Positions 20,601 to 64,000 of a stretch of DNA of 64,000 bases are shown one piece after another. Numbering within the stretch: the first letter of the stretch is position 1; the number at the start of each line of letters is the position of its first letter. Under the pieces are notes generated by a model. The model worked only from the letters and a program-made list of their open reading frames with translations. It was not told where the DNA came from and made no database searches. The stretch comes from Primulina eburnea (taxonomy: Eukaryota; Streptophyta; Magnoliopsida; Lamiales; Gesneriaceae), in assembly GCF_022965805.1 (NCBI RefSeq), contig NC_133108.1, positions 18,302,056-18,366,055 on the forward strand, in the 5' to 3' direction. Both the position numbers and the translations under genes were made by a program.

Positions 20601-20757
20601 AATAGTTCAATGTGTTGAACGGCTTATAAAGGAGTTTATAAGCGTAAAGAAAATTAGAAGTATGACTTCTATAAAGGAGAAAATAGTTCAATGTGTTGAA
20701 CGGCTTATAAATGAGTTTATAAGCGTAAAGAAAAATAGAAGTATGACTTCTATAAGA
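20601..20757 (+). repeat. Tandem duplication within the copia LTR
   Basis: A unit of about 81 bp beginning aatagttcaatgtg occurs at 20601 and again at 20682. The Copia-2 LTR has the same duplication (about 35800-35945), so it predates both insertions. A second short repeat (attaattcaagtgttgaatt) recurs at about 20873 and 20930. Confidence 0.8.
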
Positions 20758-21622
20758 GAAATGTAAATTTTAATTTATGGAAGTGTTCCTAAATTAAAAT
20801 TTGGCCAAGTGAATAATGTATTTGAAAATTGTGATTTTCATAAACATTATTATGGACTAAATTAAATTAATTCAAGTGTTGAATTAATTAAACACTAGTG
20901 GACCTAGTAGAGTCCAAATAATTAAATTAATTCAAGTGTTGAATTAATTAAATTATATTGAGTCTTGTAGAGCTCAATTTAAATTAATTATTTAACTAGT
21001 GGGACTTGGGTAAATTCAAGTAATGTTTAATTAGTCTCAAATATGTTTGAGATAATTAAATTTAGTCCCTGGTTTTTATTTTGATAAAAAACCATATAAT
21101 ATGCATGCATGGGAGGTGAAAGGTTGGGAGACTACTTTTTGAGTTTTCAAGGCATGGCATGCAACTTTTTGGAACACTTTTTCCCACAACCAAGGCTAGT
21201 CTCCCTTCCCCCATTCATTCATCTCCTTGGCCGAAACTTCAAGGATTTTTCTCTCAAAAATTTTCTTCTTTTGTTCTTCAATTGTTGGAGATCAAAAACA
21301 CTTTTCTTTGAAAAATCCTCTTAATTTTCTAGTGCAAATTAAGAGGGGATTTACCTAGTTGGTGGTGGGCCTAATTTGAAGGAAAGATTTCAAGAACAAG
21401 GAAAGCTTGTAGAGGGTCTTGCCATTCAAGAGCTTAGTTGTTTGACAACTAAGTTGGAGCCATAATCAATCTCTTGAGATTGATAGGTATATTTCTTTAA
21501 AACACCCTATGTATGACATTTTTGTGTTTTATTGTATTTGTTGCACAAAATCTTGAGGTGGCCGAAAATTCTTGTCAAAAATTTGATTTTTAAACTTCCG
21601 TTGCGCTTGCGGCCACCGTAAC

Positions 21623-39157: not shown

Positions 39158-39252
39158 TTTCTCCCCCCCTAAGATACGATTTCGTCCTCGAAATCACAAG
39201 CCATCTATCATATCAACAAGGAGTATATACAGAAATGTATACGAAATTTACA

Positions 39253-42200: not shown

Positions 42201-43745
42201 CGCTCCCTTCTGCAATAATCGAGTCATATTCATTGCAGATATCAAAGGAATTCTAGCACGAGAACCCTTACCATAAAATTTCCACTCCTCAACCATCTCA
42301 GGTCTGAATCGAACTATCTTGTGGAAACAATCGACTGTAGCTCGGTACTTGGTCAACATGTCGATGCCGACAATACAATCAAAATCGGATAAACCAAGCA
42401 CAATACAGTCTAATTCAATCGTATGCCCATCGTACTGCAGTATACATGATTGAACAGATTTCACTGATATCAATCCTGTCCCTAACGGAGACGTGACAGA
42501 TACTACCGTAGCTAAGGACTCAACAGGCAATGAATGCATTAAAGCAAATCGCTCAGACATAAAAGTATGTGATGCACCAGTATCAATCAATACGTAAGCA
42601 GGATAACCAGAAATAAAACAGTTACCTGCAACTACATCATCGGGTGCATCCTGTGCCTGCTCCTCGGTCAAAGCAAAAACTCTGGCCTGCTGTCTCGGAG
42701 GCTGGCTCACAATCTGGCCCCCTCCTGGCCTCTGCTGTGACAGAGTAGACGGTGCTGGCTGAAAGGAATGAACGGCAGAAGATCGTCTCCCTGCCTGAGC
42801 CACGGATCCCGATGACTCAGCTGCCTGTGATCCCTGGGCACCCCTCTGGGGACACACTCGGGCAAAGTGTCCCTGCTGTTTACAGATACGACAGCTGCCA
42901 ACTACTCCTCGGCACTGATCTGTGGAATGTCTCCCTCCACAAGTACCACAGTATGGTCCAGTATAACTTTGGCTCTGACCGATCTGTCTCGAGCCACTCG
43001 AACTGGACGAGGTAGTCCCTGATTTCTTGAATTGCTTTCCTCTAGCCTTCAAGAAATCCTTCTTCCCGGTACTACTGCTGCTGCCACCTTCAAATCGAGG
43101 AGATGGTTGTTGTCCCGATACTGGAACCACAAACGAAGCCTCTTTCTGCCTCATCAGGCCTGCCTCGGCTCCCTTGGCTCTGTTTAGGGCATCGGTGAAG
43201 TTGTTGGGCCTCCCAGTATTCACCAGAGTAAAAATTTCAGGATTTAGACCATTTATGAACTGGTCTGCTACGGCCTCATCATGTTCAGCTACGTGGGGAG
43301 CAAATCGGAGCAATGTCGAAAACTTAGCCACATAATCCTCAATGTTCAACTGGCCTTGTTTCAGGTTTGCAAACTCGGCTCCCTTGTCCTTCCTATAAGA
43401 AACTGGAAAGAACCGTAGATAGAATTCAGTCTTAAACACATTCCAGGTAATGGCCGTACCTCTCTGTTCCAACGCCCTTCTAGTCGTAATCCACCAGTGT
43501 TTAGCAACGTCATGCAACTGGTGTATTATCAGTTTCACCCTCTTTTCCTCAGTATACTCCAAAGAGTCAAACAGTGATTCAATGTCGTCCAACCAACTTT
43601 CACATTCCACGGAGTTCTCCGTTCCTTTCAAAGTCGGTAGATGAAATGACTGGAATCTTTTCAGCAATTTCTCCATTGCTGTAGGTGTCACATCCATGGG
43701 AGGATTCGAGGTACTCCCCTGTTCTGGCATTCTCCTCGGAGGCAT
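39253..43745 (-). pseudogene. Family B Gag-Pol, copy 1 (Tekay-like, one stop and one frameshift)
   Basis: Starts [11 protein letters not shown] at 43745. It has Gag; a CCHC knuckle ([14 protein letters not shown]); protease ([11 protein letters not shown]); RT (FIDDILIYS); and RNase H ([11 protein letters not shown]). An in-frame TAG at 40959-40961 follows HYLYGEKF, where a residue of RNase H is expected; the same frame then continues to about 39578. There the integrase (HHCC, then DFVTQLP, SDRDPRF and a DDE Glu) is complete, but one base is missing near GPYE. The last 78 residues, chromodomain-like (VQWTRHGVEEATWE), are in another frame. Without both lesions it would be about 1.5 k residues, normal for the clade. 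Confidence 0.9.
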
Positions 43746-43968
43746 ATCTGATAACCAAAAGGGTTAGCAGTTCCAACAATAATCCTATTTCAAGCCTCCC
43801 TGGATCATCTTACAGCTGATCCATTCCAATAATACACAATACCATATCAATAGCAGATAAGTCAGGTAACATGTATTAAAGCAATAAACATGCTAGCAAT
43901 CAAAAGCAAGGAAAGAAAATCTCATTCTACCCCGCTCACTAGCTCCTATCTCAATCTCACGGATCTAT

Positions 43969-43981
43969 CGCTCTGATACCA
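43969..43981 (-). other. Primer-binding site (tRNA-iMet type), family B copy 1
   Basis: TGGTATCAGAGCG on the minus strand, 5 bp from LTR 2. Repeated at 50773-50785 next to LTR 3. Confidence 0.9.
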
Positions 43982-43986
43982 CCTGT

Positions 43987-45961
43987 TGTGGGGACCCGGA
44001 CGCTAATCAAGTTCTTAATCATCTTTGGGACTAATTAATCAATTATAAAACAGGGTCTAAAAAATTTTTTTTAAAATGCGGAACGTAGTGAAATCAAACC
44101 ATAAAATTTTTTTTTTAAAATGCGGAACGTAGTGAAATCAAACCATATACACATATCAGTATATAACATACACGTCCTGTATCACAAACATTTATTCAAA
44201 CTAGGGTTTGACAACTACTATCAAGTGTTCAACCCTATCTCTAGTCCAAGTCCGGTGCCACCACTCTAATCACGATCTTTCTTCATCTCCTCAACCCTGT
44301 ACCTGTCCCACCTGTTGTCATGTACACATATAGACAAGACAACAGCCGGATAATTCCGGTGAGAATATAATCCCAGTATAAATCAACGAAACATGCAATC
44401 ATATAAACAATATAGAGCATGTAATCAGGTAACATGAATATGTATCAAAATCTGAAACATAAACAATATCAAATGAAACTGTCGACATTACTCATAATTC
44501 AGACTAGACTCAATCCTAGTCTAGGGATCCCGATTTCCAGATGTGGTATTCCTATATCGAATTCCGTAAAGGATGGAACCATAATATCTATTACTCGATA
44601 TAACCAGTGCCCTGGTATTCGTATATCGAATTCCGTAATAGAAGAATTCCAATACCCTTTACTCGATATAACCAAATATGGTGTTCCTATATCGAATTCC
44701 GTAATAGATTCCATTACTCGATATAACCAAACATCCAGTGTCCTGACCTAACCGTCAAGGACTGTAGCTCTATCACTAGCATCCTATCTTGATACATAGT
44801 GCAATGTGCCGTGGTGATACCACCACTATCCGGCACTTCTGTCACAAGATAACTTGTCTAATACCTGTCATCTAAATACAAGAGAACAAGTACATTAATC
44901 AATGTAATGCAAATATCCATGCAATAAATTAAAGTATGTGATTTAGGGAAACCCAAGTCTAAACCGACTTAAGTCCATCTCCCAATACCACATTGACTTA
45001 TACCTTTCGTTGCAGTCTCGGTTTCCTGCTCAGTCGAAGTCCTGAATTCACAGTCTGTGTCGTAATCACAATATCAATAATCTCATATCAATATACCTCC
45101 CAAATCGATAACAATCTGATCAATCTGAATTTAGTTCAAAATCAACGGCATAACAGTATCATTTCACTATTCCCGTCAATACCATCTCAACATCTATCAA
45201 TTACAATCTATAACCCATATCCAATATAAACTGTAATCGATTCATAATCCAAATCTGTCCGGTATAAATCAATATACCCTAAAAATTCATAACAATTCCA
45301 TAATCAGTCCGTTTCTTAATCTGACTTCGATTCTATGATGTCTATGATGTCAAGAACGTCATATATGAATCCCATTCAATTCTGACAATAGCATAATTTC
45401 AAAGCATGTCAAAACGTAGTAAAACTTACGTCAAGTTGTAGCCTACGTCGCTAGGAACTCGGTACCGAAGTCGGATTCAAAATCAGACGGACGGATTTCT
45501 CATAAAAGGCGTAAGGATTTTTCACTCTTTTCCCCTGACCCTTTTTCTCGATTCCTTCTTTGTTTTCTTATCAAAGAACAAACGTATATATGTATATATA
45601 TACTTACGTTGCATGTTTCAGCAACGTGTCACCTTTCCATGAATCTCGGCTGGCGCTCGAGCGGTAATAAACTACCGCTCGAGCGCGGCAGTTTCTGTCC
45701 GATTACTTTCGGATTACACATTTGGCGCTCGGGCGGTCAAAAACTACCGCCCGGGCGCCACTTCTTCTGTCCAAGATGTGTTCCTATTGGACTTTGGCGC
45801 TCGAGCGGTCATTTCTTACCGCTCGGGCGCCAATGTTTCTGTCCAACAATTGCACCCTTCAAATATAATTTTATTTCGTGTCCCGATTAATCCTTTCGTA
45901 ATCATATCAAATTATAAATCAATAATTACCGATTACTAGGATTAAGTTTCCGGGCATTACA
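43987..45961 (-). repeat. Family B LTR 2 (middle, shared)
   Basis: 1975 bp. Serves as 5' LTR of the left interior and 3' LTR of the right interior. It matches LTR 3, not LTR 1, at every diagnostic position I checked (for example near 44268, 44329, 44473 and 44697). Confidence 0.92.
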
Positions 45962-46056
45962 TTTCTCCCCCCCTAAGATACGATTTCGTCCTCGAAATCA
46001 CAAGCCATCTATCATATCAACAAGGAGTATATACAGAAATGTATACGAAATTTACA

Positions 46057-49000
46057 TCAGTGAAATAATGCTGGGAATTCTTGTCTCATATCAGACTCAG
46101 TCTCCCACGTAGCTTCTTCAACACCATGACGAGTCCATTGAACTTTCACAAGAGGAATCATCTTTGTTCTGAGCTGTTTTTCTTTACGATCGATAATCCG
46201 GATCGGCTTCTCGACATAACTCAATGTCTCATCCAGCTCAGTCTCGTCTGGTTGAATAACATGGGAATCATCAGGGAGATATTTCCGCAGCATTGATACA
46301 TGAAAAACATCATGTATTCCAGATAATGAAGGCGGTAATGCTAGTCGATAGGCACGGTCTCCTATCTTCTCGAGAATCTCATAGGACCCACGTATCGTGG
46401 AGACAATTTCCCTTTCTTCCCAAATCGCACAACACCCCTGAAAGGAGAAATCTTCAGGAATACTCGGTCTCCTGCCTCAAATACCAACGGTCGTCGTCTG
46501 AGGTTGGCATATTTGGCTTGTCGGTCCTGAGCTGCCCTCATTTTGTTCTGAATCAACTTTACTTTTTCATTCATATCTCTGATCATGTCAGGTCCCGTCT
46601 CAGGAACTTCAGAGATATCATCCCAGTAAAGAGGCGATCGACATTTCTTTCCGTACAACGCTTCGAATGGAGCCATCTCAATACTTTTTTGATAGCTATT
46701 GTTGTACGAAAACTCGCAAAGAGGCAATGCATCTTGCCAATTAGTGCTAAAATCCAGCACTACAGCTCTCAGCATATCTTCTAATGTCTGGATCGTACGT
46801 TCTGACTGTCCGTCAGTTTGTGGATGATATGCGGTACTCAAATGCAACTTCGTACCAAGAGCTTGCTGTAAACTTTGCCAGAAGTGCGAAGTAAATCGAG
46901 GATCACGGTCTGAAACAATCGACTTCGGCACTCCGTGCAATCTTACCACTTCCTTGACATAGATATCGGCCATCTGATCATATCTATATGTCATCTTGTA
47001 TGGAATAAAACATGCTGATTTGGTCAATCGATCAATCACGACCCAAATCGCATCACAACCTCTGGAGGATCTCGGTAGCTGTGTCACGAAATCCATGGAA
47101 ATGTGATCCCATTTCCATTCAGGAATGGACAAACTCTGTAACAATCCTCCTGGTTTCTTCCTCTCAGCTTTCACCTGTTGGCAATTCAGACACTTTGATA
47201 CAAATGTAGCAACGTCTGCTTTCATTTGTTTCCACCAATATTGTGTCTTCAAATCATTATACATTTTCCTGCCACCAGGATGAATGCTAAATCGACTGTT
47301 GTGTGCTTCTGTCAGTATCCGCTGTCTCAATTCTGAAACATTTGGCACAACAATACGATTATTCACATACAAGACATTGTCACGAACCTGATATTCTGAC
47401 CGATGTCCAGCTTTGACCAAAGCAATCGACTTCTGCACATTCTGATCAACTCTTTGAGCCGCTTTAATTTTCAAAATCAGCTCTGGTTCCGCTTGAATAG
47501 TATATAACCTCATTGGTCTCTGATCTGTCTCAAATACTAATCCAGACAAACAGCAGTCTTCAATCAAATTCGATACACCAATCGTCGATAAGGATAGTGC
47601 ACATACCTTTCGACTCAACGCATCTGCTGCTGCATTGGACTTCCCTGGATAATATTTAATCTCACAATCAAAGTCTTTCAATAAATCCAGCCATCTTCGC
47701 TGTCTCATATTCAGCTCTGATTGCGAAAACAGATATTTCAAGCTTTTGTGATCAGAATATATCTAAAATTTCTCACCGTACAGGTAATGTCGCCATATCT
47801 TTAGTGCAAAGACTATGGCTGCCAATTCAAGATCGTGAATTGGGTAACGGATCTCATGTGGTTTCAATTGTCTAGAGGCATAGGCAATGACATGCCCTCG
47901 CTGCATCAGTATACATCCCAACCCTCTATGAGATGCATCACAATAAACCACAAAATCACCAGTACTTGAAGGAATCGTCAACACAGGCGCACTGGTCAAT
48001 CTCTTCTTTAACTCAAGAAAACTGGTCTCACATTCCTCAGACCAATTAAACGGAGCATTCTTCTGAGTCAACTGCGTAATCGGTTTGGCAATACTCGAAA
48101 AATCTTTAATGAATCGACGATAATATCCTGCCAAACCCATAAAACTGCGAATTTCCGGCACAGATGTAGGTCTCGGCCAAGAAATCACTGCCTCAACCTT
48201 ACTGGGATCAACTGATATACCGTCTCCCGATATAATGTGACCCAAAAACACAACCTGTTTCAGCCAAAACTCGCATTTCGACAATTTAGCATACAGTTTC
48301 TCTGCCCTCAAAATTCTCAACACAGTCCTCAGATGATTAGCATGCTCAATCATATTCTTTGAATAAATCAATATATCATCAATGAATATGATAACAAAAT
48401 CATCCAAGTATTTCTGAAATACGCGGTTCATCAATCCCATAAATACTGCCGGGGCATTCGTCAAACCAAATGGCATGACAATAAATTCATAATGTCCATA
48501 CCTGGTTCTGAATGCTATCTTTGAGATATCAGAATCCCTGACTCTCAGTTGATGGTATCCAGATCTCAAGTCGATCTTGGAATACACAGATGAACCTTGC
48601 AACTGATCAAACAGATCATCAATACGAGGCAATGGATATTTATTCTTTACCGTTGCCTTGTTCAGTTGTCGATAGTCGATACAAAGTCTCATCGACCCAT
48701 CCTTCTTTCTCACGAACAGTACTGGAGCACCCCAAGGAGATACACTCGGTCTGATGTATCCCTTGGCCAGTAAATCCTCCAACTGTTCTTTCAATTCTTT
48801 CAATTCGATTGGTGCCATCCGGTATGGAGCTCTCGAAATCGGAACTGTTCCTGGCATTAACTCTATGCTGAAGTCTATCTCCCGAATCGTAGGCAATCCA
48901 GGAATCTCGTCTGGAAAGACATCAGCAAATTCGCACACCACTGGCAAATCCGCCAATGATGGGCTCGTCTTCAGTAAATCAACTGAATATACCAGGAATC

Positions 49001-50549
49001 CATCCGCTCCCTTCTGCAATAATCGAGTCATATTCATTGCAGATATCAAAGGAATTCTAGCACGAGAACCCTTACCATAAAATTTCCACTCCTCAACCAT
49101 CTCAGGTCTGAATCGAACTATCTTGTGGAAACAATCGACTGTAGCTCGGTACTTGGTCAACATGTCGATGCCGACAATACAATCAAAATCGGATAAACCA
49201 AGCACAATACAGTCTAATTCAATCGTATGCCCATCGTACTGCAGTATACATGATTGAACAGATTTCACTGATATCAATCCTGTCCCTAACGGAGACGTGA
49301 CAGATACTACCGTAGCTAAGGACTCAACAGGCAATGAATGCATTAAAGCAAATCGCTCAGACATAAAAGTATGTGATGCACCAGTATCAATCAATACGTA
49401 AGCAGGATAACCAGAAATAAAACAGTTACCTGCAACTACATCATCGGGTGCATCCTGTGCCTGCTCCTCGGTCAAAGCAAAAACTCTGGCCTGCTGTCTC
49501 GGAGGCTGGCTCACAATCTGGCCCCCTCCTGGCCTCTGCTGTGACAGAGTAGACGGTGCTGGCTGAAAGGAATGAACGGCAGAAGATCGTCTCCCTGCCT
49601 GAGCCACGGATCCCGATGACTCAGCTGCCTGTGATCCCTGGGCACCCCTCTGGGGACACACTCGGGCAAAGTGTCCCTGCTGTTTACAGATACGACAGCT
49701 GCCAACTACTCCTCGGCACTGATCTGTGGAATGTCTCCCTCCACAAGTACCACAGTATGGTCCAGTATAACTTTGGCTCTGACCGATCTGTCTCGAGCCA
49801 CTCGAACTGGACGAGGTAGTCCCTGATTTCTTGAATTGCTTTCCTCTAGCCTTCAAGAAATCCTTCTTCCCGGTACTACTGCTGCTGCCACCTTCAAATC
49901 GAGGAGATGGTTGTTGTCCCGATACTGGAACCACAAACGAAGCCTCTTTCTGCCTCATCAGGCCTGCCTCGGCTCCCTTGGCTCTGTTTAGGGCATCGGT
50001 GAAGTTGTTGGGCCTCCCAGTATTCACCAGAGTAAAAATTTCAGGATTTAGACCATTTATGAACTGGTCTGCTACGGCCTCATCATGTTCAGCTACGTGG
50101 GGAGCAAATCGGAGCAATGTCGAAAACTTAGCCACATAATCCTCAATGTTCAACTGGCCTTGTTTCAGGTTTGCAAACTCGGCTCCCTTGTCCTTCCTAT
50201 AAGAAACTGGAAAGAACCGTAGATAGAATTCAGTCTTAAACACATTCCAGGTAATGGCCGTACCTCTCTGTTCCAACGCCCTTCTAGTCGTAATCCACCA
50301 GTGTTTAGCAACGTCATGCAACTGGTGTATTATCAGTTTCACCCTCTTTTCCTCAGTATACTCCAAAGAGTCAAACAGTGATTCAATGTCGTCCAACCAA
50401 CTTTCACATTCCACGGAGTTCTCCGTTCCTTTCAAAGTCGGTAGATGAAATGACTGGAATCTTTTCAGCAATTTCTCCATTGCTGTAGGTGTCACATCCA
50501 TGGGAGGATTCGAGGTACTCCCCTGTTCTGGCATTCTCCTCGGAGGCAT
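46057..50549 (-). pseudogene. Family B Gag-Pol, copy 2 (same lesions as copy 1)
   Basis: An exact shifted duplicate (6804 bp) of the sequence at 39253-43745. It has the same TAG (47763-47765), the same one-base loss (about 46382) and the same split into 928-, 459- and 78-residue pieces. All three translated pieces are identical to copy 1. The lesions therefore predate the duplication. Confidence 0.9.
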
Positions 50550-50790
50550 ATCTGATAACCAAAAGGGTTAGCAGTTCCAACAATAATCCTATTTCAAGCC
50601 TCCCTGGATCATCTTACAGCTGATCCATTCCAATAATACACAATACCATATCAATAGCAGATAAGTCAGGTAACATGTATTAAAGCAATAAACATGCTAG
50701 CAATCAAAAGCAAGGAAAGAAAATCTCATTCTACCCCGCTCACTAGCTCCTATCTCAATCTCACGGATCTATCGCTCTGATACCACCTGT

Positions 50791-52765
50791 TGTGGGGACC
50801 CGGACGCTAATCAAGTTCTTAATCATCTTTGGGACTAATTAATCAATTATAAAACAGGGTCTAAAAAATTTTTTTTAAAATGCGGAACGTAGTGAAATCA
50901 AACCATAAAATTTTTTTTTTAAAATGCGGAACGTAGTGAAATCAAACCATATACACATATCAGTATATAACATACACGTCCTGTATCACAAACATTTATT
51001 CAAACTAGGGTTTGACAACTACTATCAAGTGTTCAACCCTATCTCTAGTCCAAGTCCGGTGCCACCACTCTAATCACGATCTTTCTTCATCTCCTCAACC
51101 CTGTACCTGTCCCACCTGTTGTCATGTACACATATAGACAAGACAACAGCCGGATAATTCCGGTGAGAATATAATCCCAGTATAAATCAACGAAACATGC
51201 AATCATATAAACAATATAGAGCATGTAATCAGGTAACATGAATATGTATCAAAATCTGAAACATAAACAATATCAAATGAAACTGTCGACATTACTCATA
51301 ATTCAGACTAGACTCAATCCTAGTCTAGGGATCCCGATTTCCAGATGTGGTATTCCTATATCGAATTCCGTAAAGGATGGAACCATAATATCTATTACTC
51401 GATATAACCAGTGCCCTGGTATTCGTATATCGAATTCCGTAATAGAAGAATTCCAATACCCTTTACTCGATATAACCAAATATGGTGTTCCTATATCGAA
51501 TTCCGTAATAGATTCCATTACTCGATATAACCAAACATCCAGTGTCCTGACCTAACCGTCAAGGACTGTAGCTCTATCACTAGCATCCTATCTTGATACA
51601 TAGTGCAATGTGCCGTGGTGATACCACCACTATCCGGCACTTCTGTCACAAGATAACTTGTCTAATACCTGTCATCTAAATACAAGAGAACAAGTACATT
51701 AATCAATGTAATGCAAATATCCATGCAATAAATTAAAGTATGTGATTTAGGGAAACCCAAGTCTAAACCGACTTAAGTCCATCTCCCAATACCACATTGA
51801 CTTATACCTTTCGTTGCAGTCTCGGTTTCCTGCTCAGTCGAAGTCCTGAATTCACAGTCTGTGTCGTAATCACAATATCAATAATCTCATATCAATATAC
51901 CTCCCAAATCGATAACAATCTGATCAATCTGAATTTAGTTCAAAATCAACGGCATAACAGTATCATTTCACTATTCCCGTCAATACCATCTCAACATCTA
52001 TCAATTACAATCTATAACCCATATCCAATATAAACTGTAATCGATTCATAATCCAAATCTGTCCGGTATAAATCAATATACCCTAAAAATTCATAACAAT
52101 TCCATAATCAGTCCGTTTCTTAATCTGACTTCGATTCTATGATGTCTATGATGTCAAGAACGTCATATATGAATCCCATTCAATTCTGACAATAGCATAA
52201 TTTCAAAGCATGTCAAAACGTAGTAAAACTTACGTCAAGTTGTAGCCTACGTCGCTAGGAACTCGGTACCGAAGTCGGATTCAAAATCAGACGGACGGAT
52301 TTCTCATAAAAGGCGTAAGGATTTTTCACTCTTTTCCCCTGACCCTTTTTCTCGATTCCTTCTTTGTTTTCTTATCAAAGAACAAACGTATATATGTATA
52401 TATATACTTACGTTGCATGTTTCAGCAACGTGTCACCTTTCCATGAATCTCGGCTGGCGCTCGAGCGGTAATAAACTACCGCTCGAGCGCGGCAGTTTCT
52501 GTCCGATTACTTTCGGATTACACATTTGGCGCTCGGGCGGTCAAAAACTACCGCCCGGGCGCCACTTCTTCTGTCCAAGATGTGTTCCTATTGGACTTTG
52601 GTGCTCGAGCGGTCATTTCTTACCGCTCGGGCGCCAATGTTTCTGTCCAACAATTGCACCCTTCAAATATAATTTTATTTCGTGTCCCGATTAATCCTTT
52701 CGTAATCATATCAAATTATAAATCAATAATTACCGATTACTAGGATTAAGTTTCCGGGCATTACA
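50791..52765 (-). repeat. Family B LTR 3 (element 5' end)
   Basis: 1975 bp. Followed on the right by the tatat duplication and the rest of the Athila 3' LTR. Confidence 0.92.
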
Positions 52766-53275
52766 TATATATAGTAAATCAAGGAATCCAAGTTAAATGG
52801 TTGGTAAAACCAAACTAACATTTAAATGGTTCCAAGAATTTAATATTATAATATATTTATATATAATAACTCAAGGCATCCACTTTAAATGGTTGGTAAT
52901 ACCAAACTAACATTTAAATGGTTCCAAGAATTTAGTGTAACATATAGCAACAATAAATCAAAACTCCCACTTATAAGTAGGGTATAAAAATACTTAAAGA
53001 AATAAATATAACATAAACAATAAATAATGATTAAATAATATAAAGCATAGATTCTTACCTTATAATAACCTTATTATCATGCCAAGAGTTTCACCTTATC
53101 ATCTCAACTTTAGGAAGTTAGCTATTCATTATTCAAAGTGTAAAACTTTGAATATGAAATTAACATGCTAATTATATTTAAATGAAGAAATAAAAGAAAA
53201 ATATAGAGAGAAATATTATGAACTCAAAGATTTGTTCATAGAATGAGGGATATCTCAATACATTACAATGCACCC

Positions 53276-53287
53276 CTATTTATAGCC
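53276..53287 (-). promoter_or_regulatory. TATA box in Athila 3' LTR
   Basis: GGCTATAAATAG in element sense; the same box is at 63113-63124 in the 5' LTR, where it is the likely promoter for the genomic RNA and the cassette. Confidence 0.75.
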
Positions 53288-53844
53288 AAATTTGGGGAGA
53301 CAACCACAAATAAAATATTATTTTTTACACATAAGTCTTCATTGGTGTTCCAAGAAATTAATATTATATTACACATCACTTTTGAAAATCTTCTTCTCCG
53401 AATTTGCTTCTTCACATAAAATGAAACATGTGGATAATTGAGTTGTCTAGTTGTGGTATTTTTTTCAGAATATTTGACCAAGTAATTTGAGAGATATGGT
53501 CAAAATACTAGAGCATGGTAAAACTGCCACTCCTTTGGTAACTTTAATTGTTGCTTAATTTGATCCCACTTGTGAGAGGATTTTTATCTCATGCTTGGCA
53601 ACAATATTGTAGATCTTATAATCAACTTTCTACAGGTCCAAGAATCATCTTAATCCCATTTGCAACGCCAAGGTTATTCTTGTTTTATCGAACCTGTAAA
53701 AATAGTAAAAACTTATAATTACACCACAACTTATATTTTATACAATTTATTATAAAACATATAATATTTAAACATTTAATAAAACAAAAACTATATATTT
53801 ATATTATAAAACATTTAATTAATGTACAATTTTTATGTTTATCA

Positions 53845-55095
53845 CACCTCCCAACCAGCTTATTGCTAGTCCCTAGCAATTTAAGCGTTAATAGCAATAC
53901 AAAACATATTGATTAATTTAAATAGAAATGTAATCAGAACTATCTAAGTGTTTAAATTAAATTTGAAAACTGTCAAAGTTATATCAAGATCATCATAATT
54001 ATAATTTATGAAATAATTTGAGATGATTAATTCAAAGCTTATTTCAGGTAGTTAAATGTATACGGCCTTTAGAAATTCCTAGTAAGAGTCTCAACTCCAA
54101 ATCCTCACAGGTTAATAAATGTTTCAATTTATGGCAACGATTTCTCTCATGGAGTTGGAATACAGATAAATGCTCAGAAAAATGGTTTACAGAATGCAGA
54201 CAGACAAACGAGCCAAACTAATCAAAAGATAGGAAATCCATTGATTTAAAATCCAGTTGTTCTTATTATATATATTTTTTTTCCTGATTTTTTTTTTTTA
54301 CATCATGGAATCAAACTAAGTTTATGCTTCTTGACCACATATTTATTTAATTTGTACAATGTATTTATCTTTCTCTTTCTTTTTTTTTTTTTTGTATTTT
54401 TATGAGAGAAAAATGGGTCGCAGCATATAACTTAAATTACATAAATCTTCAACATCTTTCTTCTTTTTTTTTTCGCTTCTTTTTTTTTTTTTTTCAGGAA
54501 ATAACAATTTTTTTTTATTTTTTTTTTCTAAATAAGAACTCAAGATCTAAACAATTGATAGCCTCTCCGATGATCAATAAAGGCTCGCAAGCTGTTTTCT
54601 CAATCCTCTCCACTCACTCACAAAATATGTGTGAGTTCAAAAATTTTAGGCACTCTTATAAGGTATATCTTGGGCCATATACTTTAATACCTAATTTTAT
54701 CACAATGGTTAATCACTCAAAAAGATTTCATAAATCATATTTTTATATTGATCAGAATATTAAAAATGACCTTTTTTCAAATAAAAATTTAAACATTCTT
54801 AAATAGATTAATGCATGTTCTAATTTAAATCTTTCAAATATGTAATGTATGAAATTTTTGCAAAAATTACTAAGGTACAAACAATAAACATGGTTTTATT
54901 TTAAAATAATATTTAATTTATTTTTTTAAAATTTGTTTTTTTTTTCAAATGTGTTCTCCCCCCAATCAGAATATGACATTGTCCCTAATGTCAAAATAGA
55001 TATTAATAAAGAGTACATAATGAAAGAGATATCACCTGGAATTTTATTGAAGATAACAAACTGAAACAAACGCAAACCAATCCACGACTTTTGAA
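53845..55095 (-). other. Athila 3' non-coding region
   Basis: 1.25 kb, very AT-rich, with long T or A runs (about 54280-54530). No convincing ORF is present on either strand. In element sense it starts after the LOG stop, passes the purine-rich motif at 54953-54990, and ends at the polypurine tract (gggaggtg, about 53845-53853) beside the 3' LTR. Confidence 0.7.
54953..54990 (-). other. Athila/Tat-type internal purine-rich motif
   Basis: In element sense it reads tagggacaatgtcat followed by attggggggagaa. A motif of this form (gacaatgt, then a run of G) commonly follows the coding region in plant Athila/Tat elements and may act as a second polypurine tract. It marks the far edge of the inserted cassette. 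Confidence 0.6.
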
Positions 55096-55734
55096 TCAAT
55101 GATCCAACTTCCTTTTCTTACTGCTTGATTGTGACCAATTGAGCTTTGTTATCATCGGATCAGGCTTATGAACAAAAGCTTCCAAATCATCAATTAATTG
55201 ATTGGCAGTCGAAGCACAGATGAGCATCCGTCGTGAATTTTCTGAAATGAAATTCTGTTCCACAGCTTTATCAAGAAATGTCAATAAACTGTCATAATAA
55301 TAATTGATATTCAACAAGCCCACAGGTTTATTATGGATATTAAGTTGTGCCCAAGAAACAGTGTGAAAAATTTCTTCTAATGTACCAAAACCACCTGGTA
55401 GTGCGATAAAAGCATCAGAATTTTCAATCATTTGAGTGATTCTTTCATACATAGAAGAAACTTTTAATTCCTCCCCAATCGTAACACCTGTAATATTTCC
55501 TTCAGCTAAAGCTATAGGAATAATACCCAAAACCTGACTACCTCCAAGATGAGCAGATGTTGAAACAGATCCCATGAACCCAATATTACCTCCCCCATAT
55601 ACCAAGTGAATTTTTCTCTCCGCCAATATCTTTCCAAGATTATTCGCTGCTTCTACAAACACTTCATTTTTTCCAGGACTCGACCCACAAAATACACAAA
55701 TATTTTTCAATGTTTGTGTAGAGGATCCAGCCAT
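55096..55734 (-). CDS. LOG: LOG cytokinin riboside 5'-monophosphate phosphoribohydrolase, carried by the retrotransposon
   Basis: 212 aa from the ATG at 55734 (MAGSSTQTLKNICVFCGSS), a normal plant LOG length. LOG enzymes release free-base cytokinin from its nucleotide in the cytosol and nucleus. Seen: the Rossmann-type start ICVFCGSSPG (12-21), GGGNIGFMG (47-55), catalytic Arg98, and PGGFGTLEE (113-121) with the catalytic Glu. The residue after Arg98, usually Lys in plant LOGs, is Ile. The tail KKRKLD (206-211) looks like a nuclear signal. The frame is intact with no introns, whereas host LOG genes have several, so it entered as RNA. An in-frame ATG at 55866 would add 44 residues with a hydrophobic stretch; I prefer 55734 because of family length and a splice-acceptor-like site 20 nt upstream. 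Confidence 0.9.
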   Translation of the reverse strand: MAGSSTQTLKNICVFCGSSPGKNEVFVEAANNLGKILAERKIHLVYGGGNIGFMGSVSTSAHLGGSQVLGIIPIALAEGNITGVTIGEELKVSSMYERITQMIENSDAFIALPGGFGTLEEIFHTVSWAQLNIHNKPVGLLNINYYYDSLLTFLDKAVEQNFISENSRRMLICASTANQLIDDLEAFVHKPDPMITKLNWSQSSSKKRKLDH

Positions 55735-55753
55735 GTTTTTACCTTTTTTTTTT

Positions 55754-55782
55754 CTGCGAAAATAGAGAGACAGATGAGAGAT
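55754..55782 (-). promoter_or_regulatory. Splice-acceptor-like site before LOG
   Basis: In element sense, a pyrimidine-rich run (ctcatctgtctctc) then attttcgcag, with AG at 55755-55754, 20 nt before the LOG ATG. If used, it would give a spliced mRNA with LOG as the first ORF and would skip the upstream ATG at 55866. This is a sequence-based prediction only. Confidence 0.45.
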
Positions 55783-55940
55783 TTTGTAGGGGTAATATGT
55801 TATCATGACAAAACAATGGGTCACAGCTGTAAACAGAATAATAGTAAAAACAATAATGACACACATGCATATGAACAGTAGTGTGATTGTGGCTCACAAT
55901 TTTCCTCTGGTTTTACGTCCAGAAACGGCTTCAACGCCTT

Positions 55941-56486
55941 CTATGAGTCGAGGATATGCTTCCCATCCAATTTTCTTATAAATTGGCAAACAGGGTCTTT
56001 TTTAGTCAGATTCCCAAGACTATGACGCTCATCTTGAAATTGTTTCCATAAACGGAGAAGTTCAATATGCACATGTCCACTAGAATGCGTCTCAAGAGTC
56101 AATAAGATGTTATCTAAAGACTCCTTACTCAGCCCATTCTTAATGAAATCAATTTTATCTTCTTTGTTATTGGAAACACATCCCAAAGATCTGCATCGTT
56201 TGTCACAAGTCCATCTTGCACACTTATGACAAACCCCTAAACTGTTTGCCCTTCGTTTTTTCGCATAAGTGCTTTTTCCTAATCCAGGCAAATACCGAAT
56301 GAGCAATGATTGTGGAACTTCTCCTCCTAATCGGACCTTAGCTTCAATTACAAGACGAATATCTTCTGGAATTCCTTTTTGCATTAGCAATCTCAATCTT
56401 TCACACCTTCCTGCATAAATTTTTCTTAGAACATTTTCAGAAACAGAGGGAAAATATTTACAAATTTTTGAGAGAATTTCATCCAT
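55941..56486 (-). CDS. Cys/Arg-rich zinc-finger protein resembling carlavirus-type nucleic-acid-binding proteins
   Basis: 181 aa (MDEILSKICKYFP...), uninterrupted. Residues 35-70 look helical. A basic cluster KKRR (76-79) precedes a Cys group (C86, C89, C94, C98, C103) and a DFIKNG string (113-118). A tail of about 60 residues follows. The order (basic KKRRA, short linker, CxxC zinc finger, then D/F-I-x-x-G) resembles the small cysteine-rich nucleic-acid-binding proteins of carlaviruses and relatives. In those viruses they bind RNA or DNA and affect silencing or host transcription. The N- and C-terminal extensions make it longer than those (roughly 100-140 aa). It lies 173 bp after pol and 74 bp before the extended LOG frame, on the same strand. 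The family call is from memory of the motif layout, not a search. Confidence 0.6.
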   Translation of the reverse strand: MDEILSKICKYFPSVSENVLRKIYAGRCERLRLLMQKGIPEDIRLVIEAKVRLGGEVPQSLLIRYLPGLGKSTYAKKRRANSLGVCHKCARWTCDKRCRSLGCVSNNKEDKIDFIKNGLSKESLDNILLTLETHSSGHVHIELLRLWKQFQDERHSLGNLTKKDPVCQFIRKLDGKHILDS

Positions 56487-56619
56487 TTTGAAAAGAAAAG
56501 AAATGATTTTTTTTTTATTTTTGTATCAGCAATTGTGGGAAACTGATTTAACCGACTATGAGAGTCACGGAGTACCGTTATCCGCCATTTAACCGGGAAA
56601 ATAAAAAGATTAAGGAAAC

Positions 56620-56640
56620 CTGAAATAAAAACAAACAAAA
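56620..56640 (-). promoter_or_regulatory. Splice-acceptor-like site after pol
   Basis: In element sense ttttgtttgtttttatttcag, with AG at 56621-56620, about 134 nt upstream of the zinc-finger ATG. Athila env-like genes are thought to be expressed from spliced RNA, so this could serve the cassette. Confidence 0.45.
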
Positions 56641-56659
56641 TTAAATGCAACATAAAAAT

Positions 56660-59600
56660 TTAAGGATCAGAAAGGGAAATAAACTCTTCTTGAAAGATTT
56701 CATTTTCCAAAAATGGTTTAAGCCTTTGTCCATTCACTTTGAAAACATCACCATTTTTAGGATTTTCAATATCCACAGCTCCATAAGGATATACATGCTT
56801 TACAATATATGGGCCTGTCCGTCTTGATCGTAATTTTCCTGGGAATATGTGAAGTCGAGAATTATAAAGCAAAACTTTTTTACCAATCTCAAAAGATTTT
56901 CTAAGAATTGTTTTATCATGAAATGATTTGATTTTTGCTTTATAAATCCTCGAATGCTCATACGCGTCATTTCTGAGTTCATCAAGTTCATTAAGTTGCA
57001 ATTTACGCAATTTGTTGGCATCATCCATGCTTGAATTTAAAGTTTTGATCGCCCAATAAGCTTTATGTTCCAATTCCACAGGCAAATGACAATGTTTTCC
57101 ATAAACCAACCTATAGGGAGACATATTCAATGATGTTTTAAAAGATGTTCGATATGCCCACAGTGCATCATTAAGTCGCAGAGACCAATCTTTTCTATTT
57201 GAGTTAACAGTTTTTTCCAAAATTTGCTTTATCTCCCTATTAGCTAATTCAACTTGTCCATTTGTTTGAGGATGATAAGGAGTTGTTACTTTGTGAGTAA
57301 TACCATATTTTTTCATTAATGAAGCAAATGGTTTATTAACAAAGTGAGTTCCCCCATCACTTATCATAGCTCGAGGAATTCCGAATCTACTAAAAATATT
57401 TTCTTTCAAAAATTTGATGACGATTTTATGATCATTTGTTCGACATGGAATTGCCTCTATCCATTTGGAAACATAATCAACTGCAATTAAAATATACAAG
57501 TATCCAAACGACGGTGGAAAAGGTCCCATAAAATCAATTCCCCAACAGTCATAGATTTCAATTTCAATGATAGGATTCAAAGGCATCATGTTTCTTTTTG
57601 AAATTGCACCCAATTTTTGACAATTTTCACAGATCTTGCAGATTTCGTGGGTGTCTTTAAACAAAGTGGGCCAATAAAATCCACACTGCAAAATTTTTGC
57701 AGCCGTTTTCTTTGAAGAAAAATGTCCTCCGCATGCTTCTGAATGACAAAATTTAATGACACTACTTACCTCATTGTCGGGTATGCAACGTCGAAAAATT
57801 TGATCTGGACAGTACTTGAACAGATACGGATCATCCCAATAAAAGTTTTTTACCTCATTCAAAAATTTTCTCTTATCTTGGAAACTCCATTGCGGTGGCA
57901 TTTTTCCTGTCACAAGAAAATTTACTATGTTAGCAAACCAAGGTGTAGTAGTAACTGAAAATAGATGTTCATCAGGAAAATTATCGTTAATTGGCGTCAT
58001 TTCAAAAGATGATCCTGTTACTAGTCTCGATAAATGATCGGCTACGACATTCTCGGTTCCTTTTTTATCTTTGATCACAATGTCAAATTCTTGGAGCAAC
58101 AAAATCCATCGTATCAGTCGTGGCTTTGCATCCTGTTTCGTCAACAAATATCTAATAGCAGAATGATCAGTAAACACAATAGACGTTGATCCAATCAAAT
58201 AAGAACGAAATTTATCTAATGCAAATATTACAGCAAATAGTTCTTTTTCAGTTGTGGAGTAATTCATTTGAGCATTGTTTAAAGTTCTACTTGCATAATA
58301 TATCACATAAGGCTTACCGTTTCTTCTTTGACCCAGTACTGCACCGACTGCATAATCACTCGCGTCGCACATGATTTCAAATGGTAAAGACCAATCAGGA
58401 GGTTGCATGATAGGAGCTGATGTTAAATGTCGAATGATTTTATCAAAAGCATTTTGACATTCTTGAGTCCACTCAAATGCAGTGTCTTTTTTTAAGAGGT
58501 TACAAATGGGTTTAGAGATTAAACTAAAGTCCTTTATAAACCTCCTATAAAATACAGCATGTCCCAAAAATGAGCGAATTTCTTTAATGGTTTTTGGAGG
58601 GGGTAAATTGGCAATGACATCAACTTTTGCTTTATCAACTTCTATTCCATGAGATGACACGACATGTCCCAAAACAATTCCAGAAGTAATCATGTAATGA
58701 CATTTTTCCCAATTTAAAATAAGACCTTTTTCCTCGCATCTTTTTAAAACTTTTTCCAAATTTTCAAGACAATTATCAAATGTATTCCCAAAGACAGTTA
58801 AATCATCCATGAAAATTTCCAAACAATTTTCAACCATGTCGCAAAAAATGCTTAGCATACATCTTTGATATGTTGCTAGGGCATTGCATAATCCAAATGG
58901 CATCCTTCTAAATGCAAATGTTCCAAAAGGACATGTGAATGTAGTTTTCTCTTGATCTTCGAGTGCAATGGGAATTTGATAATAGCCTGAATATCCGTCA
59001 AGAAAACAGTAGTAGGGATGACCAGCTACTCTTTCTAAAATTTGATCCAAAAATGGTAATGGAAAATGATCTTTTCTAGTGGCATCATTTAATTTTCTAT
59101 AGTCAATACACATCCGCCAACTAGATGGGACTCTACTTGTTAACAATTCACCTTTTTCATTTTTTATCACTGTGATGCCAGATTTTTTTGGAACTACTTG
59201 TTTTGGACTTACCCACTTACTATCAGAAATAGGGTAGATAATCCCAACATCAAGTAGTTTGAGAACTTCAGTTTTCACAACATCTTTCATGTGTGGATTT
59301 AATCTCCTTTGTGGTTGTTGAGATGTTTTAGAATTTTCTTCTAAATGAATTTTGTGTGTGCAAATTAGTGGATTAATGCCCTTGAGATCTTTCAGTGTCC
59401 AACTAATTGCATTTTTATGTCTTTTAAGCATATCAACTAATTTACCTTCTTGATCACTTTCTAGTTTGGAAGAAATTACCACTGGATATGTTTCATCTTC
59501 TCCAAGAAATGCATACTTCAATTCTTCTGGCAAGGGTTTTAACTCCAATATGGGTGGTTCGTCTTTGTTCTCATATTTTGCATCAAATTCTTTCTCTGAT

Positions 59601-60778
59601 CCTGGTAATGAGTGATACCTGATAAAATCCTCAAGATCAATTTCAATATTTTCTTTAACAGTTTCAATTGAACAAATATCTAATTGATCACGAGTACTCC
59701 CTTCTTGAATGTTTTCTTCCACAAGAGTTTCAATAAGATTTTCATCTTCACTTTCATCTCCTTTGTCATGTGGTTGCTTACAAAGATTAAAAACATTGAG
59801 CTCCAAGGTCATGTTACCAAATGACAACTTCATTATTCCATTCCTGCAATTTATAAGAGCATTAGAAGTTGCTAAAAATGGACGACCCAAAATTACAGGA
59901 ATTGCATTACAAGCTTCGATAGATTGTGTATCTAAAACTATGAAATCGACAGGATATACAAAGTTATCAACTTGGACCAACACGTCTTCTACCATACCTC
60001 TTGGCACTTTAACAGATCTATCGGCAAGTAAAAGTGTTACCGAAGTAGGTTTTAACTCGCCTAGATTGAGTTCTTGATAAACTGAATATGGAAGTAAATT
60101 CACACTAGCTCCAAGATCAAGCAAGGCTTTTTTAATCTTTCGTTCTCCAATAATACATGAAATAGTAGGACAATCAGGGTCTTTGTATTTCAAAGTATTA
60201 TTATTTTGAATGATTGCACTTACTTGTTCGGCTAAAAATACTTTCTTTTTCACATTCAATTTTCTTTTCACAGTGCACAAGTCTTTCAAAAATTTGGCAT
60301 ATGATGGTACCTGTTTTATTGCATCTAATAAAGGAATATTAACTTTTACTTGTTTAAAAACATCATATATATCAGAATTCAAATTTGATTTTTTTGTATT
60401 TTTCAATGCATGAGGGAATAGTGGTGACACTGTCTGTTGAACCTCCTCTTCGCAAGTTATGGGTTCCACTTCCTTACCCTTTGGAGTTGATTTATCATCA
60501 TCTTCACAAGGTTCAAGAATGGATTTTTCCACAACCTTACCACTTCGAAGGGTAATAACAGATTTTACCTGATCCATCGGTTGAGTTCCAGAAGTTCCAG
60601 TTTGTGAATGATGATCCTTGGGATTAGGCAGAGGTTGTGAAGGAAATTTACCTTTCTCATGAACATTAAGTGCAGATGCAAATTTAGCAAGAGTATCTTT
60701 CAAATCTGTCATGGTTTGAGCAGTTTGAGTATTGATAGACTCTTGCTTTGCAATGAAAGAATTCAATGTATCTTCCAA
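56660..60778 (-). CDS. Athila-type Pol (protease, RT, RNase H, integrase), open frame
   Basis: 1372 aa from the first ATG (MEDTLNSF); the same frame extends upstream into gag up to a TGA at 60896. Seen: the Athila hallmark ITLRSGK (about 75-81); protease [12 protein letters not shown] (219-230); RT with FMDDLTVFG (about 655-663); RNase H ([18 protein letters not shown]); and integrase with an HHCC finger (about 1030-1070), a catalytic core with DFMGPFP, SDGGTHF and the Glu in [10 protein letters not shown], and a C-terminal [17 protein letters not shown]. There is no chromodomain, as expected for Athila. All catalytic residues appear to be present. The ORF ends 173 bp before the zinc-finger gene. 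Confidence 0.92.
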
Positions 60779-61903
60779 ATTTCTTTTCGGCGGAGGAACA
60801 TAAGGTGCATAATTTTGAAAATTTTGTTGATTTTGAAAATGTGGTTGTGAAAACTGTGCAGCATTATCATTCCTCCAACTAAAATTTGGATGATTTCACC
60901 AACCTGGATTGTAATTTTGAGAAAATGGTTCAAAATTTGGCCTTTTGAAACTGTTCAAAACATTGGCTTGTTCATGGAGACATTCTTTAAAAGAGGGCAA
61001 AGTGGAACAATCTTTTGTAAAATGATCACTTGTGTCACAGATGTGACACACAATTTCTTGAACAGATTTTAATTGACCATTCTTTTTCAATTCAAGTGCC
61101 TCAACTTTTCTTGCCAAAGAGGTAAATCTAGCTTGAAGATCATGTTCATCTTTGAGAGTGTACATACCTCCACCAGATGTAGGAGATTGAATCTTGTTTG
61201 ATGGTTCGATAGTACCTATAGTGTCCCAATTTTGAGCATTTGCAGCTAATGAATCGAGATACTCAATTGCCTCATTTGGATCTTTATCTTCAAATGTTCC
61301 ATTACACATAAATTCAACCATTTGCCTATCTTTAGGTGTTAAGCCTTCATAAAATTGAGAAACAACTCTCCAAATTTCAAAACCATGATGTGGACAAAGA
61401 TTAAGCAATTCTTTGTATCTATCCCAACACTGATAAAAAGTTTCTCCTTGTTTTTGAGTGAAAGTGATGATTTGCTTTTGAAAGAATTTGTTCTATGAGA
61501 TGGAAAAAACTTTTTCAAAAATTGTTGTTGCAATTCATCCCAAGTTCGAATGGATCCCGATCTAAGATTTTGTATCCAAGTTTTAGCTTTATCTTTTAAA
61601 GAAAAAGGAAAAAGCTTAAGTCTAATGGTGTTCATGCTACAATTTAGATCATTATATGTGTTGCACACTTCTTCAAACTCTCGTAAATGCATGTATGGAT
61701 TTTCAGAATCTAAGCCATGAAAGTTGGGTAAAAGTTGGATAATACCAGGCTTAAAATTGAAATGAGATGCATCAGGGGGAAAAACTAGACATGAAGGTGC
61801 ACTAGTACGTGTAGGATTCATGTGATCTCTAAGTGTTCTTCGTCTATCATGATCATGGAGATTGAATTTCATCTTCATTTTCTTGGATGGGTTCTTCCGC
61901 CAT
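60779..61903 (-). pseudogene. Athila-type Gag, broken
   Basis: The probable start is MAEEPIQENEDE at 61903. A one-base shift near 61856, another near 61474 (an AAAAG run one base short) and an in-frame TGA at 60896-60898 break a frame that otherwise runs into Pol. Capsid sequence is clear (FHGLDSENPYMHLREFEEVCNTY; FSLKDKAKTWIQNL), as is a zinc-knuckle-like CHICDTSDHFTKDC at about 61010-61060. The TGA sits where an Arg codon would fit, suggesting C-to-T decay. The element would now need Gag in trans. Confidence 0.85.
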
Positions 61904-62074
61904 GTTTTGTAAAAATAAAGGGTTATTTCGAATGAGTCGACCACTAAGTGTACGTGACCAAATGCTCATGCAAATGCAAAAGAAAAAGAAAAAAAAACAC
62001 ACAAAAGCAATAAAAATTCAAATAAAGAAAAATAAACCATAAACAAAATTAAATAGACTTGAAATTAAATTATA

Positions 62075-62094
62075 CTTCCCCGGCAACGGCGCCA
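62075..62094 (-). other. Primer-binding site (Athila type, likely tRNA-Asp)
   Basis: TGGCGCCGTTGCCGGGGAAG on the minus strand, 7 bp from the LTR edge at 62102. It differs from the tRNA-iMet sites of the other elements in the window and is typical of Athila elements. Confidence 0.85.
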
Positions 62095-62101
62095 AAAACT
62101 T

Positions 62102-63681
62102 GTTCCGACTTTGATTGTTGCACTCCCAAGAGCAGGTTGTCCACAAGTAATATAATTCGGCGAGTCCAAATATCGTATCCACAGGGAAGCAAAGGGTATT
62201 ACAAGTCCACTACAATGTCTTTTTGTTTTGTTTTTGTTTTTGTTTCTTTTTAATTTTAATTGTTTGAATATTTAATGGGTAAATTTTAATTGTTCAAATT
62301 TTAATTTAAGTAGTTGAGATTAAAGGATCCACTCTTGGTATTTCAATAAAGTTAACATTAACGAACAATATTGAAATCCACTTAATAAAATGGTTCCAAT
62401 ATATTAAATAATCATATTTATATTATGTTATATATTATTATCTTATAAGTATATAATATATACCAAAACTTATAAATGTGGTCAAGTATTTATTGTGCTA
62501 TATATATATTTGTAAACACTAAATCAAGGTTCCCACTTTAAATGGTTGGTAAAACCAAACTAACATTTAAATGGTACCAAGAAAATATTATTATGATATA
62601 TTTATATATAGTAAATCAAGGAATCCAAGTTAAATGGTTGGTAAAACCAAACTAACATTTAAATGGTTCCAAGAATTTAATATTATAATATATTTATATA
62701 TAATAACTCAAGGCATCCACTTTAAATGGTTGGTAATACCAAACTAACATTTAAATGGCTCCAAGAATTTAGTGTAACATATAGCAACAATAAATCAAAA
62801 CTCCCACTTATAAGTAGGGTATAAAAATACTTAAAGAAATAAATATAACATAAACAATAAATAATGATTAAATAATATAAAACATAGATTCTTACCTTAT
62901 AATAACCTTATTATCATGCCAAGAGTTTCACCTTATCATCTCAACTTTAGGAAGTTAGCTATTCATTATTCAAAGTGTAAAACTTTGAATATGAAATTAA
63001 CATGCTAATTATATTTAAATGAAGAAATAAAAGAAAAATATAGAGAGAAATATTATGAACTCAAAGATTTGTTCATAGAATGAGGGATATCTCAATACAT
63101 TACAATGCATCCCTATTTATAGCCAAATTTGGGGAGACAACCACAAATAAAATATTATTTTTTACACATAAGTCTTCATTGGTGTTCCAAGAAATTAATA
63201 TTATATTACACATCACTTTTGAAATTCTTCTTCTCCGAATTTGCTTCTTCACATAAAATGAAACATGTGGATAATTGAGTTGTCTAGTTGTGGTATTTTT
63301 TTCAGAATATTTGACCAAGTAATTTGAGAGATATGGTCAAAATACTAGAGCATGGTAAAACTGCCACTCCTTTGGTAACTTAAATTGTTGCTTAATTTGA
63401 TCCCACTTGTGAGAGGATTTTTATCTCATGCTTGGCAACAATATTGTAGATCTTATAATCAACTTTCTACAGGTCCAAGAATCATCTTAATCTCATTTGC
63501 AACGCCAAGGTTATTCTTGTTTTATCGAACCTGTAAAAATAGTAAAAACTTATAATTACACCACATATTATATTTTATACAATTTATTATAAAACATATA
63601 ATATTTAAACATTTAATAAAACAAAAACTATATATTTATATTATAAAACATTTAATTAATGTACAATTTTTATGTTTATCA
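62102..63681 (-). repeat. 5' LTR of the Athila element
   Basis: 1580 bp, TG...CA, with a TATA box at 63113-63124. Followed on the right by the gcact duplication and the rest of the Copia-2 LTR. Confidence 0.93.
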
Positions 63682-64000
63682 GCACTCTACAAGGAGCACC
63701 TATCTGCATGTTCGGACATCACAATGTCCCCTACCAATGAAACATGGTACTCACATCGCAGATACTAGTCTCGAACTCTAGCGGCCTATATCCTTCTTAG
63801 CGGCGGCTGAATCGACTTGGAACTGTTTAGAATATACAGTATTCCAAATATGAATTTCATGATACTCATCATATGAGCATCTCATATTCTTTCTACTATT
63901 TGTATATTCAAGGTCTTTATCTATGCAACTAGCATGGGTATACAGATAAGATTTACCAAAACAATAATTTCAAATATTATTAAAATAAAGATTGCTTATA

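Follow-up and report, generated by a model that had tools for sequence, protein, structure and literature searches.

A LOG-family gene and a NABP-like partner in an Athila-type retrotransposon of Primulina eburnea, with genomic copies lacking exact GT-AG segments

The element and its two accessory frames

The window, by which we mean the whole 64,000-nucleotide stretch of Primulina eburnea DNA that was analysed, carries a long terminal repeat (LTR) retrotransposon on its minus strand, which is thus the sense strand of the element. Two open frames lie between pol and the 3' LTR, one of the LOG family and one resembling carlavirus nucleic-acid-binding proteins (NABP). The parts of the element are as follows.

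36671..36675, no strand: left target site duplication, GCACT
36676..63681, minus: Athila-type LTR element with TG..CA ends and a nested insertion inside (self-BLAST, empty-site paralogue, target site duplication)
36676..37182, minus: 3' LTR, second part as read on the sense strand
52766..53844, minus: 3' LTR, first part as read on the sense strand (the nested insertion splits the LTR)
53845..53854, minus: purine-rich stretch adjoining the 3' LTR
55096..55734, minus: LOG-fold frame of 212 aa with a PGGFGTLEE motif and C-terminal KKRKLDH (ORF, Pfam, structure comparison)
55941..56486, minus: NABP-like frame of 181 aa (Carla_C4 / Viral_NABP), between pol and LOG (Pfam, protein search, alignment)
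56660..60895, minus: pol, in a single frame with the gag C-terminus; protease, reverse transcriptase, RNase H, integrase (Pfam, ORF)
60896..61903, minus: gag, broken by two frame shifts and an in-frame stop (ORF list; start read from the sequence)
62077..62094, minus: likely primer binding site adjoining the 5' LTR (read from the sequence)
62101..63681, minus: 5' LTR of 1581 bp, the right LTR of the window
63682..63686, no strand: right target site duplication, GCACT

Pfam matches and reading frames give the order PR-RT-RH-INT with no second RNase H and with a coding region between pol and the 3' LTR, as expected of Athila elements, and by this pol domain order and layout the element is classified as Athila-type. 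The initial annotation had placed an intact LOG frame on the sense strand of such an element, bracketed by both LTRs and matching gcact duplications; the frame was indeed found at 55734..55096 within 36676-63681, and both LTRs and both copies of GCACT (36671-36675 and 63682-63686) were located. An inverted paralogue of the flanking sequence at 19545-21622 lacks the insertion and represents the empty site. The divergence of about 1% claimed for the LTRs was measured as 1.1% (18 of 1586 aligned positions, five of them counted twice owing to the duplication made by the nested insertion), which corresponds to an age of about 0.4 million years if 1.3e-8 substitutions per site are assumed for each year. 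The ORF list likewise agrees with the two frameshifts and the stop reported for gag: its pieces 62017-61853 and 61492-60896 share one frame, the piece 61965-61339 uses another, and the in-frame stop is at 60896-60898. We take tRNA-Asp to be the primer that fits 62077..62094. Diaspora, an element of the Athila group, is primed by tRNA-Asp according to the available text of PMC1142308.

The insertion that splits the 3' LTR (37183-52765) is itself an LTR-internal-LTR-internal-LTR tandem of 6804-bp units that are 99.9% alike. It bears a single TATAT duplication (37178-37182 and 52766-52770) and is a retrotransposon dimer.

The LOG frame is open, stop-free and intronless. It matches the Pfam family Lysine_decarbox in a profile search (E 2.4e-37); the nearest solved structures are those of Arabidopsis At2g37210 (E 4.1e-63) and At5g11950, and comparison of the structure model with 2a33 gave a TMt of 0.93. 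The family domain, the fold, the PGGxGTxxE motif and the catalytic arginine and glutamate are all present in the window protein. Between LOG and the 3' LTR the ORF list holds no further sense frame longer than 63 aa.

The NABP frame was absent from the initial annotation. The window protein matches Carla_C4 with 30.4 bits (cut-off 20.9) and Viral_NABP with 21.5 bits, just under the cut-off of 23; at E 0.01 each family is matched by 17 of 19 aligned members, and 320 of the 356 candidates pass in the protein search. A basic stretch is followed by cysteines C86, C89, C94 and C98 (C-x2-C-x4-C-x3-C), a spacing other than the C-x2-C-x12-C-x4-C given for one carlavirus finger in the accessible part of PMC8839810. 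The predicted structure is poor (pLDDT 60.6). Viral contigs yielded 21 and 159 pattern matches and no confirmed relative, and our literature search found no published account of the carlavirus NABP family in retrotransposons. A Rhamnella gene model fuses an integrase (64% over 133 aa) with NABP. Equal-sized contigs (8723 bp for P0006/P0152; 4511 bp for P0057/P0135), considered as cases of LOG and NABP together elsewhere, were regarded as suggestive only, and a coincidence at 905 and 1006 bp between LOG and NABP contigs as probably due to chance.

Active site, relatives and selection on LOG

As far as the available text of PMC4979012 goes, Arg99 and Glu122 of the C. glutamicum LOG are proposed to be catalytic, and Met96, His97, Lys100, Glu125 and Trp129 to form the prenyl pocket, which is identical in AtLOG3 and in the rice and Claviceps LOGs; alanine swaps of the AMP-binding and catalytic residues nearly abolished activity, except S19A. 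The window protein keeps the catalytic residues as Arg98 and Glu121 and keeps M95 and W128 of the pocket, whereas the equivalents of His97, Lys100 and Glu125 are changed to Y96, I99 and H124. Most of the relatives listed follow the same pattern. Among these, the best 120 of 7954 passing matches, the catalytic Arg and Glu are each kept in 116; at the pocket Lys position 114 have L, M or I and six keep Lys, Glu125 is replaced in 114 and kept in six, and His97 remains His in 40. Six of these best 120 of 7954 have the host-like Lys and Glu together (P0002, P0003, P0042, P0096, P0098 and P0099). All five positions (catalytic Arg and Glu; pocket His97, Lys and Glu125) are intact in 120 of the 120 canonical host LOGs listed. 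The C-terminus differs as well: an LxLxL end, which we take to be an EAR motif, occurs in 102 of the best 120 of 7954 relatives versus none of the 120 host LOGs listed, and a basic cluster within the last 22 residues, presumably a nuclear localization signal, in 99 of those 102 versus one of the 120. The lineage of the window LOG has no LxLxL and keeps KKRK.

Of the earlier description of this protein as a cytokinin-activating LOG, the LOG assignment stands; cytokinin activation is doubtful because three of the five proposed prenyl-pocket residues are changed. Retention of Arg98, Glu121 and the P-loop motif gives roughly an even chance that the protein remains able to split the N-glycosidic bond in a nucleoside 5'-monophosphate, with altered preference; alternatively, the altered pocket may belong to a protein that binds without catalysis.

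In the phylogenetic tree 40 LOGs of element type occupy one side of a branch (98/94) and form a clade (97/95) with a bacterial root; for most of these members the designation derives from signature and copy number. The opposite side holds 21 host LOG1/3 proteins and AtLOG8, the latter falling among LOG1/3. The tree took in 39 of the 120 listed relatives and 21 of the 120 listed host LOGs, with LOG5/LOG7 types left out. Three of the six relatives that keep Lys and Glu are in the tree, and they lie at the base of the element clade. Named proteins of several plant families belong to this clade, and a Xanthoceras LOG gene model contains 41 aa of Athila-like polyprotein (E 5e-10, single comparison). 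Capture of a host mRNA had first been proposed for the locus; a recent capture is not supported, since the 40 element-type proteins make up this single clade apart from the sampled host LOGs. One of the relatives, P0008, is annotated as 'LOG3-like' in P. eburnea and sits behind the pol and NABP of an element; P0040, annotated as 'LOGL10' in Populus, has the signature of element-type LOGs, as judged from the protein alone. Element frames of this kind are entered in databases as host genes, and counts of the LOG family would be distorted as a result.

The question whether the window holds a lone pseudogene was answered in the negative by 1465 first-look LOG candidates in the genome, a number that comes from a loose search and does not count verified copies, together with a second element family in the same genome. 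All 150 scored LOG candidates are full length and 149 are stop-free. For NABP, 147 of 150 scored rows (from 1428 candidates of the same loose kind) lack a stop, and a scored LOG follows just downstream in 109 of the 150, at 209-230 nt in 106 and at 70, 74 and 102 nt in three. In 59 fetched copies of the window family, family 1 (L009-L028, L030-L049 and L051-L069), 58 have an intact LOG, 49 an intact NABP and 45 an intact pol C-terminus. A search with P0008 retrieved the second family: among 150 scored rows it makes up 80, with identities of 82-100%, and 57 of these are stop-free; the other 70 rows are family 1 at 68%. The LOGs of the two families are about 67% alike. The order POL-NABP-LOG was seen in L073 and L074, the only two of five fetched family 2 loci long enough to display it. 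In both, NABP is cut short by a stop and extra sequence precedes a conserved 3' block, and LOG is intact. The NABP-LOG pair is therefore not strictly kept together.

Between the families LOG has dN 0.25-0.27 and dS 1.24-1.34, so that synonymous sites are near saturation, and dN/dS is 0.19-0.21 in five of five comparisons. On this codon evidence the ratio of about 0.2 shows LOG to be an old gene under long-term purifying selection. The initial annotation had suspected constraint on LOG, and neutral dN/dS, set beforehand as refutation, was not seen. Within the families the picture is less uniform. In the family 2 copies read, pN/pS of LOG is 0.47-0.84, with 4.14 in one pair that has few synonymous changes, and L073 and L074 have identical LOGs; these recent copies show little apparent constraint. 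In family 1 (n=60 including the window), shared changes in LOG are 8 synonymous and 4 nonsynonymous and private changes 16 and 27 (Fisher p 0.10); the ranking of copies by LOG score favours LOGs with few nonsynonymous changes. The corresponding counts, with copies having indels or partial frames dropped, are 9/3 shared and 11/40 private for the pol C-terminus (49 copies; p 0.0008) and 6/11 and 7/38 for NABP (51 copies; p 0.16). Hence the contrast between shared and private changes is significant for the pol C-terminus and not for LOG or NABP.

Two other accounts of the gene have to be weighed against these data. According to the first, a recently captured LOG still activates cytokinin and promotes division of the cells where the element replicates. 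The plant-type fold and the retained P-loop motif and catalytic pair would suit it; the single element clade, the near-saturated dS between families and the Ile, His and Tyr in place of Lys100, Glu125 and His97 argue against it, and we regard it as unlikely. According to the second, LOG is a passive hitch-hiker trapped in a burst family and is open merely through the youth of the copies. Numerous near-identical copies, the weak constraint in recent family 2 copies, and private changes in NABP and the pol C-terminus that look near neutral, as expected after insertion, agree with such an account. Since family 2 keeps open LOGs at near-saturated synonymous divergence, with dN/dS of about 0.2 relative to the window, and since relatives are present in several plant families, we consider it very improbable.

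Exact intron losses in genomic copies

Comparison of copies revealed two segments with intron-like ends, which the initial annotation did not have, and a conserved block overlaps the second.

56620..57769, minus: intron 1, GTAAGT...TTTCAG, from the integrase interior to just upstream of the NABP frame (exact absence in L023 and L034)
55754..55897, minus: intron 2, GTGAGC...TTCGCAG, downstream of the NABP stop and upstream of the LOG ATG (absent in L023, L070 and L072)
55880..56020, minus: block up to 92-100% identical to family 2 (60-column steps), covering the 3' end of NABP together with the donor of intron 2

L023 lacks both introns, L034 lacks intron 1 only, and L070 and L072 lack intron 2 only, with exact boundaries; in L071 a shorter form of intron 2 is missing, which starts at an alternative GT donor and shares the acceptor. 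Among the 59 fetched copies intron 1 is missing in two and intron 2 in one; L070, L071 and L072 were chosen for odd spacing or frame length, and all three lack intron 2 or, in L071, its shorter form. Apart from the loss, both copies without intron 1 run colinear with the window through the upstream sequence that was read, and they are recent, since their LTR pieces are 99.8% (456 bp) and 100% (215 bp) alike. The pol C-terminus is missing from the fetched stretch in four of the 59, namely in these two and in L033 and L069, which are ordinary truncations. L033 was considered as a spliced copy and rejected: NABP and pol are missing upstream, yet the break falls inside intron 2 and the acceptor is kept.

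The exact losses of GT-AG segments from genomic copies imply that sense transcription and splicing of the element took place, and from their boundaries the five intron-less loci are reverse-transcribed spliced RNAs, possibly from fewer than five independent events, as copies of the same form may share one parent. Chance deletion without splicing, for which L033 and L069 show that ordinary truncations do arise, is scarcely credible in view of five loci in four combinations with GT-AG boundaries, intron 2 being gone at the identical place in three and the same acceptor being used in a fourth. In family 2 donor 2 is conserved and AG acceptors precede NABP and LOG (sequence only); donor 1 is not conserved (ATAAGT), and the intron 1 donor may thus be incidental. 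Intron 2 contains three ATGs; after its removal the first ATG downstream of the NABP stop is that of LOG. For the related element Diaspora, the available text of PMC1142308 reports predicted splice sites, and its reference list includes a paper on spliced envelope-class plant elements.

The 55880-56020 block is this similar although LOG synonymous sites are near saturation between the families. In family 2 it stands after the NABP stop, a position that points to conservation at the nucleotide level, for which a cis element or gene conversion may be responsible. A second conserved stretch common to both families, 56510-56620, is non-coding and lies between acceptor 1 and the NABP ATG. RNA folding of the conserved blocks gave no excess stability (z -0.60, -0.41, -1.22 and 0.37), and a search of 53800-57900 against Rfam returned no match up to E 1.

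Proposed role and comparison with known systems

Taken together, the data make it quite likely that an old and prolific lineage of Athila-type elements carries LOG as a permanent accessory gene, within a two-gene cassette of NABP and LOG ahead of the 3' LTR, and that the element drives its expression. The element RNA was transcribed in the sense direction and spliced at the acceptors ahead of NABP and LOG, and spliced forms were reverse-transcribed. Unspliced RNA would supply gag-pol and spliced forms the accessory proteins, and removal of the three ATGs with intron 2 may help ribosomes to reach the LOG start. Only tentatively do we propose that LOG has a nuclear function through the basic tail at its C-terminus and in this way prepares the host cell for replication of the element. 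A still more speculative extension, which we would not expect to hold as a whole, follows the logic of complex retroviruses: structural genes would come from unspliced RNA, whereas alternative splicing would yield the messages of two regulatory genes, one for a virus-like zinc-finger protein and one for a modified LOG. LOG, no longer devoted to cytokinin, would have another nucleotide as its nuclear substrate or would serve there as a nucleotide-gated recruiter of corepressors (basic tail; EAR-like LxLxL in most relatives), loosening silencing or immune signalling.

LOG is a case of a hormone-metabolism enzyme that selection has retained within an element, and why retrotransposons retain host-derived enzymes becomes a question testable with one purified protein. 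Moreover, spliced copies in the genome are evidence of expression independent of RNA data. LOG domains in Gypsy elements have been published before; the pairing of NABP with LOG, the splice fossils, the selection and the pocket change are apparently new, as none of these was found for LOG-bearing retrotransposons in the literature searched.

According to the available text of PMC9289625, which cites Steinbauerova 2011, a YgdH (LOG) domain occurs in Gypsy consensuses from Citrus sinensis and C. clementina and, under a looser filter, from Populus trichocarpa. These elements share with ours a LOG-family domain as an extra; they differ in that the available text describes a domain match, with no account of NABP, splicing, selection or the active site, and in that the host of the window belongs to Gesneriaceae. 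Carlavirus cysteine-rich NABPs have in common with the partner frame the Carla_C4 match over the cut-off and the basic stretch ahead of four cysteines, whereas the window protein has 181 aa and its own finger spacing. Canonical plant LOG1/LOG3 (2a33) has the same fold, P-loop motif and catalytic Arg and Glu; in contrast, the element frame is intronless, with a changed prenyl pocket, a basic C-terminal tail and, in most relatives, LxLxL. Finally, the envelope-class Athila/Calypso elements have the same gag-pol layout and likewise coding sequence that follows pol ahead of the 3' LTR, and the likely primer binding site of our element would fit them; the accessory frames here are NABP and LOG.
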